From Pseudoflavonifractor sp. MSJ-37 (GTDB lineage: Bacteria > Bacillota > Clostridia > Oscillospirales > Oscillospiraceae), in the NCBI RefSeq assembly GCF_018917965.1, contig NZ_JAHLPP010000003.1, positions 62,001 to 126,000 of the forward strand: a stretch of 64,000 nucleotides of DNA, given 5' to 3'. Positions 37,887-63,560 of the stretch are shown here, piece by piece. The notes below the pieces were generated by a model. The model made no database searches. It saw only the letters and a program-made list of their open reading frames with translations, and had not been told where the DNA came from. The stretch's first letter is position 1. Each line of letters opens with the position of its first letter. The position numbers and the translations under genes are program-made.

Positions 37887-38900
37887 CTATGGAATCAGGT
37901 TCACGGTGGCCTTCAGTTCGTCCAAAGTCTTGTGATTATACACCCGGTTTCCCGTGTCCTTGGACACATGGCCCATGAGCAAATCAATACATTTTCGGTT
38001 TCCCCCGGCGCTGTCCAGTTGGGTTTCAAAGGTGTGGCGGCACTCATGCGGGGTGTGGTTCATGTTCAGGGCCTTCATAATGTCTGCCCAAAATATCCGG
38101 TATTGGGTTTGGTTGCAGACCTTCCCATTATAGCAAATCAGCCGTGGGCCACCTTCGGCAAGCCGCTGTTCAATCAATGGCCTGATCTTCGGGTGGATGG
38201 GAACGATGCGGTTTTTACCGGCCTTCGTTTTGGTGCCGCCCTTCATCGTGCCTTCCTTCAGGTCAATATCTTCCGGTTTCAAGTTCAGAAATTCAGAGAT
38301 ACGCCACCCGGAATATAGCAGGATCAGGACGGTATCAACCCAAGGATCAGACTGATGTTCCCACACCGTTTTGATTTCATCCTTGGTGAACGGAAGGCGG
38401 CTTGTTTCTGGAACAGGATCAGAGGTCAACAGATCGGAGAATGTACGGGTTATAATATCCATTTCAAGGGCAAACCGGTCAAGGTGGCCCCACAGGTTCT
38501 TGATTGCCGCTTGGGTTGAATATCCTTTCCCGCAGTTGTCAATGGTTTCTTGCATTTGATATGACCGGATTTGTTTGTAAGGCTTGTTCATATACGCTGA
38601 ACAATGCTTGAACGCTGAACAGAGGGAAGCCCGGTTGGATTCACCCAGCTTCGGGGCTTTCTTTTCTTTCCAGAGGTCAAAAAGCTGTTGAAGGGTGATT
38701 TTGGCCCGGTCAACATCCCACGGATCACGGTTGTATTCAGCAAGCATGATATTTCCGGCTTCACGGGTTTCAGCATAACCGATAATGTCATAAATCGGGT
38801 GGCCTTTGTCATTCCAACCTATGGTTTTCTTCACGATGTACGGGCGGCGGCGCTGGCCTGATAGCTTCGCAACTGTTCCGTACCCATTTGGGTTCCGCAT
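37887..38900 (-). CDS. int: Phage tyrosine-type integrase
   Basis: The 337-residue protein is a site-specific tyrosine recombinase that integrates and excises the phage genome. An AP2-like arm-binding start (GYGTVAKLSGQRRRPYIVKK) is followed by a core-binding SAM-like domain and the catalytic domain. Catalytic residues are visible: Arg in YSGWRISEFL, Lys in KAGKNRIVPI, HECRH in the box II, His in GHVSKDTGNRVYNH and the Tyr in the same segment. Start taken at 38900 behind AGGTGA; the longer frame is not needed. It is the leftmost phage gene, transcribed towards the host junction. Confidence 0.93.
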   Translation of the reverse strand: MRNPNGYGTVAKLSGQRRRPYIVKKTIGWNDKGHPIYDIIGYAETREAGNIMLAEYNRDPWDVDRAKITLQQLFDLWKEKKAPKLGESNRASLCSAFKHCSAYMNKPYKQIRSYQMQETIDNCGKGYSTQAAIKNLWGHLDRFALEMDIITRTFSDLLTSDPVPETSRLPFTKDEIKTVWEHQSDPWVDTVLILLYSGWRISEFLNLKPEDIDLKEGTMKGGTKTKAGKNRIVPIHPKIRPLIEQRLAEGGPRLICYNGKVCNQTQYRIFWADIMKALNMNHTPHECRHTFETQLDSAGGNRKCIDLLMGHVSKDTGNRVYNHKTLDELKATVNLIP

Positions 38901-39105
38901 TATATCACCTGAACTTTCTGAAAATGGGTATGGCAAAGCCAAACCCCGTGTGATATAATGGTCAATGGTGGTTGAAACATTAACTTCAATTTGGGGTTTG
39001 TTTCGCCTGACCGCTTCGGTGTTCCAGCACCGGAGCGGTCATTTTTTTTGATTTTGAATGATGTTGAATGAGCCTGAAGCCTTGCGGCACAAGGTTTTTT
39101 CGGAA

Positions 39106-41364: not shown

Positions 41365-41371
41365 ATGACAC
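41356..41371. promoter_or_regulatory. Phage operator, copy 2
   Basis: GTGTCCTAAATGACAC spans the stop codon of the Cro-like gene. It differs at one base from copy 1 and is identical to copy 3 at 49696. No promoter is obvious here, so it may act as a roadblock-type site. Confidence 0.6.
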
Positions 41372-41388
41372 TTCGAGGAGTAAGCACC

Positions 41389-42011
41389 ATGAATGAAGTC
41401 AGTTTGAAACCGGTCATTGATGAACTTGAAACCTTGTTTTCAAAGTTCAACAAAGCCTTCTTTGAAGGCAAGCTGGAAAAGCCTGTTATCACCGTTTCCC
41501 CGGATCATACCCGTGGGGCTTATGGCTGGTGTACCGCTTGGAAGGCTTGGCAAGACGGCACCAAGGAAGGCGGCTATTACGAAATCAACCTGTGTGCCGA
41601 ATACCTGAACCGCCCCTTTGAAGAAACCTGTGGAACCTTGCTTCACGAAATGGTTCACCTTCTCAATCTTCAGGACAATGTTCAGGACACTTCCCGTTCT
41701 GGTTCCTACCACAACCGGAAGTTCAAAGAAACCGCTGAAGCCCACGGCCTGACCGTGGAGAAAGGCGAAAAGTACGGGTGGCGCAAAACCACCTTGAACC
41801 CGCAAGCTGAAGCCTTCGTGAAATCCCTTGGCAAATCCGGGTTCTGTCTGGTTCGGCCCCGTACCAATCCGCTGAAGGGTTCCCGGAAGGGGGGGGGGGA
41901 TCGAGTTCCCGCAAATATGTATGCCCCTGTTGCGGAACCATCATCCGGGCCACCAAGGAAGTTCATGTTCTTTGCGGGGAATGTGAAGTGGCCTTTGAAG
42001 AACAGGAGTGA
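41389..42011 (+). CDS. SprT-like zinc metallopeptidase, interrupted at a G11 tract
   Basis: The first 165 residues form a SprT-like peptidase domain with the HEMVHLL zinc motif and a downstream His (GSYHNRKFKE). A run of 11 G (41889-41899) then shifts the frame. As written, translation goes on to 42105 in an unrelated frame. In the alternative frame it continues GSSSRKYVCPCCGTIIRATK and CGECEVAFEEQE, a four-cysteine zinc ribbon typical of SprT proteins, and ends at 42011 in a GTGA overlap with the next gene. So a 9- or 12-G tract gives the full protein of about 207 residues. SprT/Spartan proteins act on DNA-bound proteins; phage forms are common in early operons. Confidence 0.8.
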
Positions 42012-42325
42012 TTTCAACGGAAAAACATCTTCATGCCGTTCAGTTCGATGGAATGACTTTTGGAATGGCAATAGACACTTCCACAGAAGCGTACAAGTCA
42101 TTTAAGAAAGCCTTGAAATACGAAAGCTGTATCAGCATTTTTGGGGATGAAATTCTTGTTCGGGTAATTCCATTCAAAAATTTGGGTGGGATTATGCGTG
42201 AAGCCCATTGGCTGGTAACTGAAGGTCATTACTTTGACTACATCAAAATTGATGGGCTTCAGGATGATATTTATGTGAAGTATTCGGATAAACAAATTGA
42301 TTTTCGCCACAGAAAAAGTTGGTAG
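42008..42325 (+). CDS. Early phage protein of unknown function
   Basis: The 105-residue protein starts with GTG overlapping the restored SprT stop codon (GTGA), behind an AACAGGA-type site. It shows beta-rich text (GMTFGMAIDTST, DEILVRVIPFKNLGG, DDIYVKYSDKQIDF). No family recognised. Confidence 0.7.
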   Translation: MISTEKHLHAVQFDGMTFGMAIDTSTEAYKSFKKALKYESCISIFGDEILVRVIPFKNLGGIMREAHWLVTEGHYFDYIKIDGLQDDIYVKYSDKQIDFRHRKSW

Positions 42326-51709: not shown

Positions 51710-53587
51710 GGCTATGTGCCAACCAGAAACAAACAATGCCTTGAAAAGTTCAAAGGCGTTGAAAAACTGAAAACCCGTTCACAGGTTCAAGACCTTGATG
51801 AATACGCCGGTATTCTTGGGGAAGAAACGATCCTGATTGATGTGGACGATGCGGAAACATCTGAACTTCTGTTCAGAATGGTTCAAGATTTAGAACTGAA
51901 ATGCCGAGTGTACGCCACCACACGGGGAAAGCATTTTCTGTTCAAAAACTGTGGCGTTGAAAAAAGCTGGACAAAACAGACCTTGGCCGTTGGTATCACC
52001 ACAGATGGCAAGGTTGGAGCCAACAACAGCTATGAAATTCTGAAGTTAGGCGGTGTGGAACGGCCCATTCTGTATGACTACCCGGAAGGCGAAATTCAGG
52101 AACTTCCCAAGTGGCTGACACCGGTGAAAAGCAATTATGACTTCCCGAACCTTGGGGAAGGTGATGGGCGGAACCAAACCCTGTTCAACTACATACTGAC
52201 GCTTCAAAGCGATGATTTCACCAAGGAAGAAGCCCGTGAGTGTATCAGGCTGATCAACCGGTATGTGCTGAAGAAGCCCCTTTCGGATAAAGAACTTGAT
52301 GTGATTCTTCGGGATGATGCCTTCAAGAAAACATCTTTCTTCCGGGATAAAACCTTCCTGTTCGATAAGTTCGCCACCTACCTGAAGAACAACAACCATA
52401 TTGTGAAGATCAATAACCAGCTTCACATTTACAAGGATGGTATCTATGTTTCCGGGGCCGGTGAGATTGAAGGGGCCATGATCAAGCTGATCAGCAATTT
52501 GAAACGGGCGTGGCGTTCGGAAGTGCTGTCCTATCTGGAAATTATGATTGAGGAAAACACAAAGGCCACAAACCCCAACATCATTGCTTTCAGCAACGGC
52601 CTTTACAACATTCGGGATGGTTCCTTCAAAGAGTTCACCCCGGATGTGGTGATTACCAATAAAATTCCGTGGCCGTACAATCCCGCCGCCCATGATGATC
52701 TGTTGGATCACACCCTGAACCGGCTGGCCTGTGATGATCCTGAAGTTCGGGCCTTGCTGGAAGAAATGGTGGGTTACTGTATGTACCGCCGCAATGAACT
52801 TGGTAAAGCCTTCATCCTGATTGGCGATAAGAGCAACGGCAAATCCACCTTCCTTCATGTGGTGAAAAACCTTCTTGGGGATCAGAACATTGCTTCCCTT
52901 GACCTGAAGGAATTGGGTGATAGGTTCAAAACCGCTGAACTTTTCGGCAAGCTGGCAAACATCGGTGATGATATTGGTGATGAATTTATTGCCAACGCTT
53001 CCGTGTTCAAAAAGCTGGTGACGGGTGATCGGGTGAATGTGGAGCGCAAAGGCCAAGATCCCTTTGAGTTCAACAATTATTCCAAATTCCTGTTCAGCGC
53101 CAACAACATTCCCCGTATCAAGGACAAGACCGGAGCCGTTCAACGGCGTTTGGTGATTGTTCCCTTTGATGCCAAGTTTACCCCCAATGATGCTAACTTC
53201 CGCCCGTTCATCAAGGATGAACTGTGTGAACAAAGCAGTATGGAATATCTGGCCTTGCTTGGCCTTCAGGGGTTGAAGCGAGTGTTGGGCAATGCACAGT
53301 TCACCACTTCCAGCCGGGTTCAGGGGCAGTTGGACGAATATGAGGAAAACAACAATCCCATTATTGGCTTTATCAAAGAAATTGGCTTGGATTCCATCGT
53401 GAATGAAGCCACAAAGACGGTTTACCGGAAGTACAAGGAATATTGCATTGCAAATAACTTCCAAGCACTTTCAAATATTGAATTTTCCCGGCAAATCACA
53501 AAACGCTGTGGACTGGTGATTGTGGACAAATGGATCAGCCGCCTTGGGAAATGCCGGGTATTTGTGGAAGGTGGTGAAGATGAATGA
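51695..53587 (+). CDS. D5-type primase-helicase (SF3)
   Basis: The 630-residue protein has an N-terminal bifunctional primase/polymerase-like part (residues 1-200; EETILIDVDDAETSELLF, YATTRGKHFLF) and a C-terminal P4/D5-type SF3 helicase (from 300; Walker A GDKSNGKST near residue 377, Walker B-like LANIGDDIGDEF, sensor-like FLFSANNIPRI). It unwinds and primes the phage origin. The G9 run and GGGAGCG provide the upstream ribosome region. Its stop overlaps the next gene by four bases. Confidence 0.9.
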   Translation: MELFRGYVPTRNKQCLEKFKGVEKLKTRSQVQDLDEYAGILGEETILIDVDDAETSELLFRMVQDLELKCRVYATTRGKHFLFKNCGVEKSWTKQTLAVGITTDGKVGANNSYEILKLGGVERPILYDYPEGEIQELPKWLTPVKSNYDFPNLGEGDGRNQTLFNYILTLQSDDFTKEEARECIRLINRYVLKKPLSDKELDVILRDDAFKKTSFFRDKTFLFDKFATYLKNNNHIVKINNQLHIYKDGIYVSGAGEIEGAMIKLISNLKRAWRSEVLSYLEIMIEENTKATNPNIIAFSNGLYNIRDGSFKEFTPDVVITNKIPWPYNPAAHDDLLDHTLNRLACDDPEVRALLEEMVGYCMYRRNELGKAFILIGDKSNGKSTFLHVVKNLLGDQNIASLDLKELGDRFKTAELFGKLANIGDDIGDEFIANASVFKKLVTGDRVNVERKGQDPFEFNNYSKFLFSANNIPRIKDKTGAVQRRLVIVPFDAKFTPNDANFRPFIKDELCEQSSMEYLALLGLQGLKRVLGNAQFTTSSRVQGQLDEYEENNNPIIGFIKEIGLDSIVNEATKTVYRKYKEYCIANNFQALSNIEFSRQITKRCGLVIVDKWISRLGKCRVFVEGGEDE

Positions 53588-54615
53588 TACAAACTTTTGA
53601 AACTATGACAGAACTGTTAGATAGCGTTCCAAAGGAAAATATGACCTTTGAAATGTGTAATGCGTTTGTCAAGGCGTGGGGGAAAATTCATGGATACGGT
53701 GGAGGAAAGTCCGAAATTCAGCCATTCACCAAGTATCCTAAAATAATGGTCAGCGTTAGTGGTGGGGCCGATTCCGATATTATGATTGATCTGATTGAAA
53801 GGATCGGCCACCCATTAAGTGAAGTTCACTATGTGTTCTTTGATACTGGTATTGAGTTCACAGCAACTAAACGCCACCTTGATTATCTGGAAAACAAGTA
53901 TGGAATCCAGATAGAACGGTATCGGGCCAAAATACCAGTTCCTCTTGGGTGTCGAAAATACGGTGTTCCATTTTTAAGCAAACAGGTTTCCCAATATATA
54001 TCCCGCCTTCAAAAACACGGGTTCAAATGGGAAGATAAACCATTTGAAGTGTTATATGCCGAATATCCCCGATGCAAGGCGGCTTTACGCTGGTGGTGTA
54101 ATCGTTGGGGAGATCACAGCAAAATGAACATTTCAAATAACCCGTGGCTTAAAGAGTTCATGGTACAAAACCCACCACAGTTTCTCATTTCAGATGGATG
54201 TTGTTCAGGGGCCAAGAAAAAAACTTCAGCCATGATTGAAAAAATAATCAACCCTGATCTGAATTGTCAGGGTGTGAGGAAAGCTGAAGGCGGGGCAAGA
54301 TCAACCGCTTATACTTCTTGTTTTGATGAAGTCTTTGGTGGATGTGATAAATTCAGGCCCATTTTCTGGTTCAAGAAGGAAGATAAAGCCGCTTATGAAG
54401 CGGCCTTTGAAATAGTTCATTCTGACTGTTATACCGTTTACGGGTTTCAAAGAACTGGATGTGCCTGTTGCCCCTTTGGGCGGCATTGGGAAGATGAACT
54501 ATGCGCCGCTGAAAAATATGAGCCTAATTTATATAGGGCGGCGGTAAATATTTTTGGAAAATCTTATGAATATACCAAAAAATACCGGGAATTTCAGAAG
54601 AAAATGAAAGGATGA
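53584..54615 (+). CDS. Phage PAPS-reductase/DndC-like PP-loop protein
   Basis: The 343-residue protein is of the PAPS reductase/adenine nucleotide alpha-hydrolase type. The PP-loop is MVSVSGGADSDIMIDLI (SGG-D-S, residues 56-72), with FDTGIEFTAT after it. Cysteines are many, including CKAALRWWCNRWG, CCSGAKKK and the C-terminal CACCPFG, which could hold an iron-sulfur cluster as in DndC of DNA phosphorothioation. Roles in sulfur transfer or DNA modification are possible, but no other Dnd gene is present. It starts a run of nucleotide-related genes. Confidence 0.85.
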   Translation: MIQTFETMTELLDSVPKENMTFEMCNAFVKAWGKIHGYGGGKSEIQPFTKYPKIMVSVSGGADSDIMIDLIERIGHPLSEVHYVFFDTGIEFTATKRHLDYLENKYGIQIERYRAKIPVPLGCRKYGVPFLSKQVSQYISRLQKHGFKWEDKPFEVLYAEYPRCKAALRWWCNRWGDHSKMNISNNPWLKEFMVQNPPQFLISDGCCSGAKKKTSAMIEKIINPDLNCQGVRKAEGGARSTAYTSCFDEVFGGCDKFRPIFWFKKEDKAAYEAAFEIVHSDCYTVYGFQRTGCACCPFGRHWEDELCAAEKYEPNLYRAAVNIFGKSYEYTKKYREFQKKMKG

Positions 54616-61067: not shown

Positions 61068-61142
61068 GGCCCGTTGGTCAAGCGGTCAAGACACCGCCCT
61101 TTCACGGCGGTAACGCCGGTTCAACTCCGGCACGGGCTACCA
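61068..61142 (+). tRNA. tRNA-Glu (anticodon TTC), CCA encoded
   Basis: Acceptor GGCCCGT/ACGGGCT (one G-U), anticodon stem CCGCC/GGCGG around CTTTCAC (anticodon TTC), T-arm GCCGG/CCGGC, and encoded CCA. It is 75 nt long. It reads GAA, the Glu codon strongly preferred in this phage. Confidence 0.93.
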
Positions 61143-61196: not shown

Positions 61197-61281
61197 GCTG
61201 AAGTGATGGAACAGGCAGACAAGGCGGATTCAAAATCCGTTGCCGCAAGGCGTGTGGGTTCAAATCCCACCTTCAGCACCA
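61197..61281 (+). tRNA. tRNA-Leu (anticodon CAA), CCA encoded
   Basis: Acceptor GCTGAAG/CTTCAGC, anticodon loop TTCAAAA (anticodon CAA), a long variable arm (TTGCCGCAAGGC) as in class II tRNA, T-arm GTGGG/CCCAC around TTCAAAT, encoded CCA. It is 85 nt long. It reads TTG, common in the phage and rare in the host part. A GCGGG/CCCGC hairpin (61172-61190) separates it from tRNA-Glu. Confidence 0.92.
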
Positions 61282-61306: not shown

Positions 61307-63295
61307 ATGAACAATGCGGATTATTGGCGGGGCCGGTTCTCCATCTTGGAGGACAGCGCCCACAGAGAAGCCCAGCAAACCATTCAGGCCATGGAAGAAA
61401 TGTATCTGGATGCCCAGCGTTCAGTTCAGAAGGAAATTGAAAGCTGGTATGCCCGGTTTGCGGACAACAACCAAATCAGCCTGACCGATGCCCGGAAATG
61501 GCTGACCGCTGGACAGCTTGAAGAATTTCATTGGACAGTTGAACAGTATATCAAGATCGGTGAACAGGCCGGGTTGGATGCGGCGTGGCTGAAGAAGCTG
61601 GAAAACGCTTCCGCCCGGTTCCATATTTCCCGCCTTGAATCTGTTCAGATGGGTATTCAGCAACAGCTTGAATTGCTTTACGGCAATCAGGTTGACAGTC
61701 TGGATGCCCTGTTGAAGAAGGTTGTGGGCAACGGGTACACCCACACGGCCTTTGAAGTTCAGAAAGGCGTGGGACTTGGGTGGGATATTACCGCCCTGAA
61801 TCAGAAGAAACTTGAAACCTTGCTTTCAAAACCGTGGACAACTGACGGGCGAACCTTCCGGGATCGCTGTTGGCTGAACAAGAATGATCTGGTGGGTTCC
61901 GTCAGCAAGAGCCTAACCCAAGGGCTTCTTCGGGGCGATTCCCCGGCCAAGATTACCACGGCCATTCAGAAGCAGTTTGGGGTTCACCGTTACAAGGCTG
62001 GACGGCTGGTGAATACGGAAACCACCTATTTCAACGCCGTTGCCACCAAAGAGAGTTACAAAGATTTGGGCGTGGAAATGGTGGAAATCATTGAAACGCT
62101 TGATTCCCATACCTGTTCCATTTGTGGTGGCCTTGATGGGAAGGTGATTCCCATTGCCCAATATGAACCCGGCGTAACTGTGCCGCCCTTCCACCCGAAT
62201 TGCAGAGGAACAACCGCCCCGGCCATTGATCCCAAGTATGCCGGTGAGAGAGCCGCCCGGAATGAGGATGGCAAGGTTTACTATGTACCCGCCAACATGA
62301 AATATGCTGATTGGGTTCAGACCTTCGTGAATGGTGGTTCCAAGGGTGGCTTGACCGCCGCAACCGGGGCCGCTATAATGAAGGCGAAACGGGCGCTTGA
62401 AATCCTGAAGCCTGAAATGTTCCCGGAATATTTGACCGATAAGAAGGAACTGAAGAACACCAAAACCCTGATGGATTATATCAATGGGTGTGAAAATGCT
62501 GATCCTGATGTAGTGGCCCTTTATGCCAAGATGGGGGATATGGAGAATATCAAGGCAAACGGAATCCCCATGAAGGTTTCCCACGGAAAAGATCATGCTG
62601 TCAGTTATCGGTATAGGTTGTCGAATGATCATATCATTGATGCCGAATTGACCATTCCCAAGCTGTCCGGTGAAGATTTGACCGGGCAAGTGGTTACAAC
62701 GCTCCATGAAGAAATGCACCTGATGGATATGTTCAATCGGGCAGATGCCGCCAAATATTCCAACTGGTTCAGTTCCAGTAATGCAAAATTGAGCGCTTTT
62801 TTTCAAAAAACGGATACGGATATTGCTGATGATATTGATGCGCTATTTGAAGCCTTCGATAAAGAGTGTACCTGCATTTCAAGGGAAATCAATTCTGAAT
62901 TGCGGAAAACAACAGATGCCTTGTATGATCAATACCTTGCGGGTGGCATATCCTACACAGACTATAAAAAAGGGTTCAATAAGCTGAAACGGGAAGCAAG
63001 TGAACAAATTGATTATCAATGCCGAAACGCTATGGGCGGCGGTGTCAGTTCACTTGAAGATATTTATGATGCCCTTTCCGGTGGTTCGGCCCGTGATGCT
63101 GGCCTTGTGAGATACGGCCATGGAACGCAATACTACCGGAATATTGGGAAGCGTTCTGAAGAAACCCTTGCCAATTACGGAGCCTTGGCGATTGTCCGCC
63201 CTGATTTGGTGGATATGCTACGCAAGGATAAACCTGAATTGGTGGATGCCTTGGATGAAGTCATTCAAGAAATGCTGAAGAAAGCTGGTGGTTAA
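61307..63295 (+). CDS. MuF head protein fused to an HExxH metallopeptidase domain
   Basis: The 662-residue protein starts with a minor head (SPP1 gp7/MuF) module of about 310 residues, seen in TLDSHTCSICGGLDGKVI and PPFHPNCRGTTAPA with zinc-binding Cys/His. The C-terminal part (about 360-662) is not structural: it carries TLHEEMHLMD (HExxH, residues 467-471) and SEETLANYGALA (Glu618/619 as likely third zinc ligand), the plan of gluzincin toxins. MuF proteins with changeable toxin tails are known in temperate phages. A 70-residue gene follows without gap and may code for immunity. Start at 61307 behind TTGGAGGA. Confidence 0.88.
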   Translation: MNNADYWRGRFSILEDSAHREAQQTIQAMEEMYLDAQRSVQKEIESWYARFADNNQISLTDARKWLTAGQLEEFHWTVEQYIKIGEQAGLDAAWLKKLENASARFHISRLESVQMGIQQQLELLYGNQVDSLDALLKKVVGNGYTHTAFEVQKGVGLGWDITALNQKKLETLLSKPWTTDGRTFRDRCWLNKNDLVGSVSKSLTQGLLRGDSPAKITTAIQKQFGVHRYKAGRLVNTETTYFNAVATKESYKDLGVEMVEIIETLDSHTCSICGGLDGKVIPIAQYEPGVTVPPFHPNCRGTTAPAIDPKYAGERAARNEDGKVYYVPANMKYADWVQTFVNGGSKGGLTAATGAAIMKAKRALEILKPEMFPEYLTDKKELKNTKTLMDYINGCENADPDVVALYAKMGDMENIKANGIPMKVSHGKDHAVSYRYRLSNDHIIDAELTIPKLSGEDLTGQVVTTLHEEMHLMDMFNRADAAKYSNWFSSSNAKLSAFFQKTDTDIADDIDALFEAFDKECTCISREINSELRKTTDALYDQYLAGGISYTDYKKGFNKLKREASEQIDYQCRNAMGGGVSSLEDIYDALSGGSARDAGLVRYGHGTQYYRNIGKRSEETLANYGALAIVRPDLVDMLRKDKPELVDALDEVIQEMLKKAGG

Positions 63296-63508
63296 GTGAA
63301 TCGGGAAGAAAAGCTGATGAAGGTTCATCAACTTCTTACTGAAGTTGATGATGTGCTGGTAGATCGCTTTTTCGATACGGACAGCGAAAAACTTCTTGAT
63401 GAAAAAATTGAAGTGCTGACCGCCTTGAAGAATGGAAAGAAACCTGAAGAAATTTCCAAGTATTATTCCGTTCTTGAAAAGTTCACACCTGATCAGCATT
63501 GGGATTAA
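63296..63508 (+). CDS. Small acidic protein after the MuF metallopeptidase; possible immunity protein
   Basis: The 70-residue protein starts with GTG directly after the MuF stop codon and has no family I know. It is acidic and helical (MKVHQLLTEVDDVLVDRFFD, SEKLLDEKIEVLTALKNGKK). Position after a predicted toxin domain and its own terminator suggest that it neutralises the HExxH domain in lysogens; this is inference from gene order. Confidence 0.7.
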   Translation: MNREEKLMKVHQLLTEVDDVLVDRFFDTDSEKLLDEKIEVLTALKNGKKPEEISKYYSVLEKFTPDQHWD

Positions 63509-63527
63509 AACCTATATTGATGATTTG

Positions 63528-63560
63528 ACCACCCCGGCCCTTGGCCGGTGGTGGTTTTTT
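63528..63560 (+). terminator. Terminator after the MuF/immunity pair
   Basis: ACCACC-CCGGCC pairs with GGCCGG-T-GGTGGT (one bulge) around CTT and is followed by six T. Confidence 0.8.

Follow-up and report, generated by a model that had tools for sequence, protein, structure and literature searches.

The stretch of DNA analysed here, which we call the window, is 64,000 nucleotides long and carries on its + strand the gene of a MuF minor head protein of 662 residues (ORF 61307-63295, ATG start). Genes for the terminase large subunit and the portal protein are located upstream of it, and a scaffold gene (PF06810) is found downstream, from 63657 on. Residues 199-303 are matched by Pfam PF04233 (Phage_Mu_F; E 1.9e-13) and the protein is also matched by the NCBIfam model phageSPP1_gp7 (E 6.7e-23), which bears out the preliminary description of this locus, in which the N-terminal half had been read as a MuF minor head protein. 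PHROG 4728 ('head morphogenesis') spans the entire protein, its C-terminal tail included, and PADLOC returned no match for it. Residues 1-345 (61307-62341, + strand), which contain PF04233 and have relatives in 22 viral loci, are referred to below as the constant part. A phage integrase is encoded at 37890-38942 in the same prophage, the far end of which lies beyond the window; as indicated by this integrase gene, the element hosting the MuF gene is a temperate phage. Its early part also contains a SprT-like gene (41365-42105) and a PAPS-reductase-like gene (53584-54615). Genes for tRNA-Glu (61068-61142) and tRNA-Leu (61197-61281) are present between the portal and MuF genes; the same pair, or a trio with tRNA-Gln, occupies that spot in loci L118-L122 and is absent in L123, L130 and L138.

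The C-terminal 310 residues of the protein (about 353-662; 62363-63292, + strand) are probably a zinc metallopeptidase, and a putative toxin. A confident structure prediction (pLDDT 94.5) gave a zincin resembling the catalytic domain of lethal factor, and the predicted fold has a zinc site, the point on which it had been proposed that the tail be checked. The two motifs on which the preliminary description had drawn, TLHEEMH and SEETLANY, occupy residues 465-471 and 617-624. H467-E468-x-x-H471-x-x-D474 (62705-62728, + strand) would supply the zinc site and general base, and the stretch from H605 (in YGHG) to E619 (in ExxANY; 63119-63163, + strand) contains the candidate third zinc ligand, E619. 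H467, E468, H471, D474, H605 and E619 were unchanged in 38 of 38 aligned tails, and the first four were also invariant in an 11-row alignment that takes in an archaeal-virus protein. No Pfam or NCBIfam family matched the tail at its cut-off. A Foldseek search of the PDB found nothing at E <= 0.001, a profile search against the sequences of solved structures nothing significant (best E 0.057) and a sequence-profile search with the window tail no match at E <= 0.1; for the 38 tail members, there was no significant profile match among the 25 families listed of 49. Lethal-factor-like zincins and the MPTase of polyvalent proteins, as presented in the accessible text of PMC5512222, have the fold predicted for the tail, with HExxH, a downstream Glu and an Asp three residues past HExxH. 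The tail differs from them by a long helical insert and a DIYDALSGG...YGHG motif, and no significant sequence match to them was found in these searches. With respect to the traits of the polyvalent-protein MPTase clade, the Asp past HExxH is invariant in the tail and the His near strand 2 is not.

The putative immunity gene (63296-63508, + strand) starts with GTG at the base right after the TAA of the MuF gene, in the same frame, and encodes 70 residues. Its product is acidic, as had been stated earlier (pI 4.83, 17 D+E against 11 K+R), and aligns over 70 of 70 positions with PHROG 29156 (phrog_29156, E 2.4e-34), the function of which is not annotated. No Pfam or NCBIfam model corresponds to it, the profile search against sequences of solved structures gave nothing significant (best E 0.13) and its best PADLOC match had an E of only 0.014. 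The Shine-Dalgarno energy of the small gene is moderate (-5.5, compared with -9.3 at the MuF start), and it may therefore need translational coupling at the stop codon of the MuF gene. An intrinsic-terminator-like hairpin with a T run (63527-63556, + strand; -24.2 kcal/mol, z -5.2 versus shuffles) starts 18 nt past the small-gene stop, in the gap before the scaffold gene, in agreement with the terminator of its own that had been attributed to the small gene. Folding the tail and the small protein as one chain gave a pLDDT of 89.4 and a pTM of 0.82, with 40-91 by block for the small part; these scores are not taken as evidence of contact.

Among virus contigs, the small protein as a query picked out 46 loci, duplicates kept. 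The tail was directly upstream in 38 of them, including two with only the tail end at the contig edge and one with a tail split by a stop; one further locus was cut at a contig edge and 7 had no tail. With the tail as the query, 41 viral loci were found and the small gene was next in 30. Of the others, 2 loci end too early, 5 have an ORF whose relation to the small gene is doubtful, and 4 are weak tail relatives that lack the small gene (L058-L061). Small ORFs behind the tails of L050 and L054 resemble the small gene in an LDDKI..A...I.GE pattern; a two-sequence search gave no better than E 0.008, too weak to establish homology, and both loci were scored as having no small gene. Genome contigs with the tail had a small-gene relative next to it in 10 of 10 cases, and in all ten of these genomes the sole small-gene match adjoins the tail. 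The pair, which had been proposed for a search in other MuF prophages, was recovered in viruses and in genomes alike. Matches to the small gene, a few of them weak, came from 3 of 391 genomes searched in the class and from 3 of 397 in a related family; the tail and the small gene are a rare, patchy and mobile pair. The occurrence of homologues of both in many phages, along with zinc-motif residues that are invariant in all 38 rows, indicates that the features read at the MuF gene are not due to chance. Distances between tails and between small genes were correlated (r 0.67, 35 pairs). When carrier divergence was held constant, the partial r of the small gene with the tail was 0.30, against 0.21 with the carrier (26 pairs); small-gene divergence tracks the tail hardly more than the carrier. 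Two further candidates for small-gene relatives, L103 (an SNF2 protein, E 4e-4) and L117 (a 214-aa frame, E 7e-5), were taken for chance matches, and the match in L116 is weak and unplaced.

The tail and the small gene are found together on several carriers, namely MuF proteins (L044, L082), Phage_min_cap2 (L087), VG15 (L046) and a 2,339-residue protein of vir335 (BK063680.1), a virus of Methanomassiliicoccales. The latter protein (L020:12080-19099), which has no Pfam or PHROG match, ends in the tail, and the small gene comes next. A weak overlap of MuF with Phage_min_cap2 in L082 suggests that these two carriers may be distant kin. The constant part, for its part, has relatives in 22 virus loci (41-100% identity), and among the tails on these related MuF bodies are papain-like ones, others of HExxH type and some left unassigned (named by eye); the small ORFs that go with each of them are different as well. 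The tail profile and the small-gene profile each match only L118 among the 22. In L127 and L128 the constant part leads straight to the scaffold gene, with no tail.

The preliminary description had tied the small gene to this tail as a specific partner. This did not hold in every locus, as the small gene was found without the tail in the 7 viral loci mentioned above and twice in genome G338, but these copies lie mostly behind other MuF tails or in prophage remnants, as orphan immunity genes might. In L013-L016 the small gene stands behind other, partly HExxH-like MuF tails, together with further small ORFs; in L063 it is behind a MuF gene without this tail and in L073 in a phage tail region. 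To judge by their sequence context, the orphan small genes fit immunity genes that would have been retained after an exchange of toxins. Some of these loci show additional features. In L013:1875-3549 the HExxH-type tail of the MuF gene continues in another frame, with two small ORFs and then the orphan small gene coming after it, and in L015/L016:1978-3757 resolvase-like and TnpB-like genes (assigned by eye) separate another MuF tail from a shortened small gene. The two copies without tail in G338 (L115, G338:C64; 12190-12420 and 15769-15912) are 3.5 kb apart in prophage remnants with a terminase-like fragment and have a common sequence on their downstream side. In L081:3551-4213 the small protein is fused in frame to an HTH_3 domain. 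The scaffold gene comes right after this fusion, and the 3.5 kb upstream contain no MuF gene; a rearrangement or an assembly error may lie behind this.

These exchanges bear on another role for the tail: instead of a toxin, it could be a protease for processing or for host takeover, at work within the head or at an early stage of infection and comparable to the MPTase domains of polyvalent proteins, with the small protein serving as its chaperone or as a timing inhibitor. Such a role would agree with the proposal, in the accessible part of PMC5512222, that zincin domains of injected phage proteins process proteins, with the Asp that the tail and one MPTase clade of that report have three residues past HExxH, and with the position of the tail in vir335, where it closes a 2,339-residue protein outside any MuF context. 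Yet the exchange of tails on one MuF body, each tail with its own small ORF, and the persistence of small genes without the tail are better explained by a toxin and its immunity protein, and we consider a protease role of this kind unlikely.

The window protein has the MuF domain, C-termini that vary among its relatives, a linked small gene and a place in a temperate phage, and by these sequence traits it would belong to the MuF toxins, which are known mainly from temperate phages. The proposal that the MuF protein with its zinc-peptidase tail and the linked small gene form a toxin-immunity pair is in this way supported by comparison. The same plan, with a MuF N-terminus, an exchangeable C-terminal toxin and a small downstream gene, is that of the MuF polymorphic toxins in the available text of three reports (Jamet 2017, PMC5576092; Apk2, PMC12226406; Bxa, PMC11699363), according to which 20% of 191 reported MuF toxins have a metallopeptidase domain and 89.4% have a small ORF after them. 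Compared with these toxins, the window tail family and its 70-residue partner stand apart in having no Pfam or NCBIfam model.

A promoter-like sequence, TTGACC-N17-TATAAT (11 of 12 positions), was detected by scanning at 62351-62379 (+ strand), at the seam between the constant part and the tail, a position common to related genes. This promoter-like site inside the MuF gene is a new point that goes beyond the preliminary description. The window contains two promoter-like sites with at most one mismatch, against 0.12 expected; the one at the seam does not have the TG of an extended -10. Among the 38 relatives of the window tail, 8 had a site of at least 10/12 in the interval from -105 to +15 relative to the start of the tail. 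Shuffling of dinucleotides gave 0.5 and never reached 8 in 200 rounds, and synonymous shuffles within the segment gave 3.8, with 1 of 200 reaching it.

For a wider sample, the loci already collected were joined by 80 further virus loci and by the best loci from a search of 391 genomes of the class (71 matched), both found with a constant-part profile (A9). It comprised 182 genes with a constant-part end, and 103 once near-duplicates had been removed: 93 long ones (tails of at least 80 aa), 9 short ones (less than 40 aa) and 1 in between. This pool is not a random sample, since it derives partly from searches with the window tail, and the tails of its long genes form only 20 families, the largest with 42 members; a G-rich linker motif is common to 34 of the 93. 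Sites of at least 10/12 with a spacing of 16-18 nt, within 150 nt past the constant part, were found in 45 of the 93 long genes, at 11/12 or better in 19 and with an extended -10 in 25. In the same three classes, dinucleotide shuffling gave means of 2.2, 0.2 and 0.2 (maxima 7, 2 and 2 in 100 rounds), resampling of synonymous codons 9.8, 2.5 and 1.5 (maxima 15, 7 and 5), and the reverse strand 2, 0 and 0. At least one member of 16 of the 20 tail families had a site, and in L223 and L242 it was a 12/12 match with an extended -10. Under a relaxed rule, which also allows TG-extended sites of 9/12, the count was 56 of 93, versus 2 on the other strand; 48 long genes were without a site at 10/12 or better, and 37 under the relaxed rule.

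The sites were confined in spacing and in position. The spacer was of 17 nt in 30 loci, of 16 in 8 and of 18 in 9, and wrong spacings gave 2 or 3. The successive 50-nt bins after the seam held sites in 25, 15 and 6 of the 93 genes, and the eight bins before it in none. Elsewhere, sites were seen in 4 of 87 tail bodies (2.7 expected) and in 0 and 1 of 93 genes at two places in the constant part. Short MuF genes of the same pool had a site in 1 of 9 cases. ATA Ile codons under the -10 (36 of 42) were not taken as evidence, because the sites had been picked for TATAAT.

After the hypothesis had been formed, 348 genomes of the phylum were searched separately with PF04233 (53 genomes matched, 30 loci, 28 placed) and with PF06152 (25 matched, 27 loci, 17 placed of 19 scanned, 8 weak, broken or duplicate ones being left out). 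A 200-nt segment, from +60 to +260 past the domain, was scanned. Sites were found in 5 of 11 long genes in the PF04233 sample and in 5 of 10 in the PF06152 sample (shuffles 0.55 and 0.37); the short genes, 17 in the first sample and 7 in the second, had none.

Linkers are A+T-rich in many loci and partly homologous, and the figure of 9.8 of 93 from synonymous resampling alone implies that linker peptide and codon usage could account for about a fifth of the excess of sites. On a reading of this kind, the sites would not be promoters and would have arisen as by-products, either of how the linkers are composed or of a seam left by recombination. Evidence against this comes from the strand bias of 45 to 2, the sharp optimum at a spacer of 17, the extended -10 in 25 genes versus 0 on the other strand, the occurrence of sites in G+C-rich linkers too (L177, 0.64; L200, 0.61) and the repetition of the pattern in the two further samples. 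We regard a by-product origin as very unlikely.

The products expected from a transcript starting at the seam were assessed in the long genes. An ORF of 40-170 aa follows the MuF gene in all 86 (of 93) that had enough downstream DNA, compared with 44-49 when this DNA was shuffled. Its Shine-Dalgarno energy is -7 or lower in 69 of 86 (7-15 after shuffling), the best start being used for genuine and shuffled sequences alike; an earlier rule that took the first start codon had given 31 of 86 with a motif. When hairpins with a T run were called by a folding rule in the 700 nt past the stop codon of the MuF gene, 66 of 85 long genes had one (shuffles 2.5), as did 4 of 9 short ones; a stricter rule demanding a perfect stem gave 16 of 85 and 2 of 9. 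To judge from these Shine-Dalgarno sequences and terminator-like hairpins, a seam transcript would express the small gene and end before the capsid genes.

The seam transcript would also hold the whole coding region of the tail, and it could serve to make free toxin tail in addition to the antidote, as a toxin-antitoxin (addiction) module of the lysogen. Salmonella Rhs loci provide a model for this, as they have, in the available text of PMC7043789, an internal promoter at the same relative place, near the junction of the conserved part and the toxin, from which free toxin is made by way of internal starts. The MuF loci resemble them in the position of the promoter-like site but differ in that no good internal toxin starts were seen. 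In-frame tail starts past the promoter with a Shine-Dalgarno energy of -7 were found in only 2 of 45 loci, as against 1 of 45 in the constant-part control, strong internal starts by another count in 2 of 92, and the window has no in-frame start better than -4.3 in the 240 nt past its seam site. An addiction module is for these reasons distinctly unlikely. With no internal toxin start preceded by a good ribosome-binding site, the antidote alone would be made from the seam transcript.

We consider it fairly likely, on the strength of the sequence comparisons, that the locus is a polymorphic toxin gene carried by a phage and paired with an immunity gene, and that the seam promoter keeps the antidote on in the lysogen. 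The domains, the conserved zinc residues, the linkage, the cassette exchange, the promoter-like site and the terminator are read from sequence; from them we infer the enzyme activity, a target, the inhibition, the delivery and the use of the promoter in lysogens. On this view the MuF body serves as a minor head protein, its metallopeptidase tail would be carried along with the DNA into a newly infected host and cut a protein there, and the acidic 70-residue protein would bind and block the tail. The toxin part and the small gene would thus form one cassette with two modes of expression. During lytic growth, a late promoter would yield the antidote as well as the complete MuF-toxin. In the lysogen, with the late genes off, the seam promoter (62351-62379) would drive transcription through the remainder of the MuF gene and through the small gene as far as the terminator at 63527-63556, which would keep the scaffold and capsid genes silent, and the antidote would shield the lysogen against toxin carried in by sister phages. 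More generally, we lean slightly towards the view that prophage toxins of Bacillota on head proteins (MuF, Phage_min_cap2) commonly form a unit of seam promoter, toxin tail, immunity gene and terminator within a capsid gene, which would give lysogens the antidote from a silent late operon.

Phage morons are units of the late region that have a promoter and a terminator of their own; the unit proposed here differs from them in that its start lies within a capsid gene, to which it is joined in frame. A promoter within a MuF toxin gene is not described in the available text of PMC5576092, PMC12226406 and PMC11699363, nor in the literature searched, subscription papers and preprints excepted. In the type VI secretion system of V. 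cholerae, a promoter inside an effector gene transcribes the downstream immunity gene while the main operon is silent, as documented in the available part of PMC3857813; the two cases differ in that a secretion system was studied there, with lacZ fusions, and phage head genes are considered here, from their sequences, which speak strongly for a promoter-like site ahead of the small gene.

If the proposed scheme is true, lysogens would survive toxin-loaded virions of their own kind and non-lysogens would not. The seam promoter predicts that lysogens make the antidote and not the toxin, in which case the pair would be a kin-recognition device acting at infection, and it shows where the late operon could be cut to see antidote expression. 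The seam site would also be of use in the search for toxin-immunity cassettes where the tail of a phage head gene has no family match. This tail and the 70-residue protein are an added pair, found also in a virus of a methanogen lineage, vir335, in which the tail protein adjoins parB, helicase and Erf genes.
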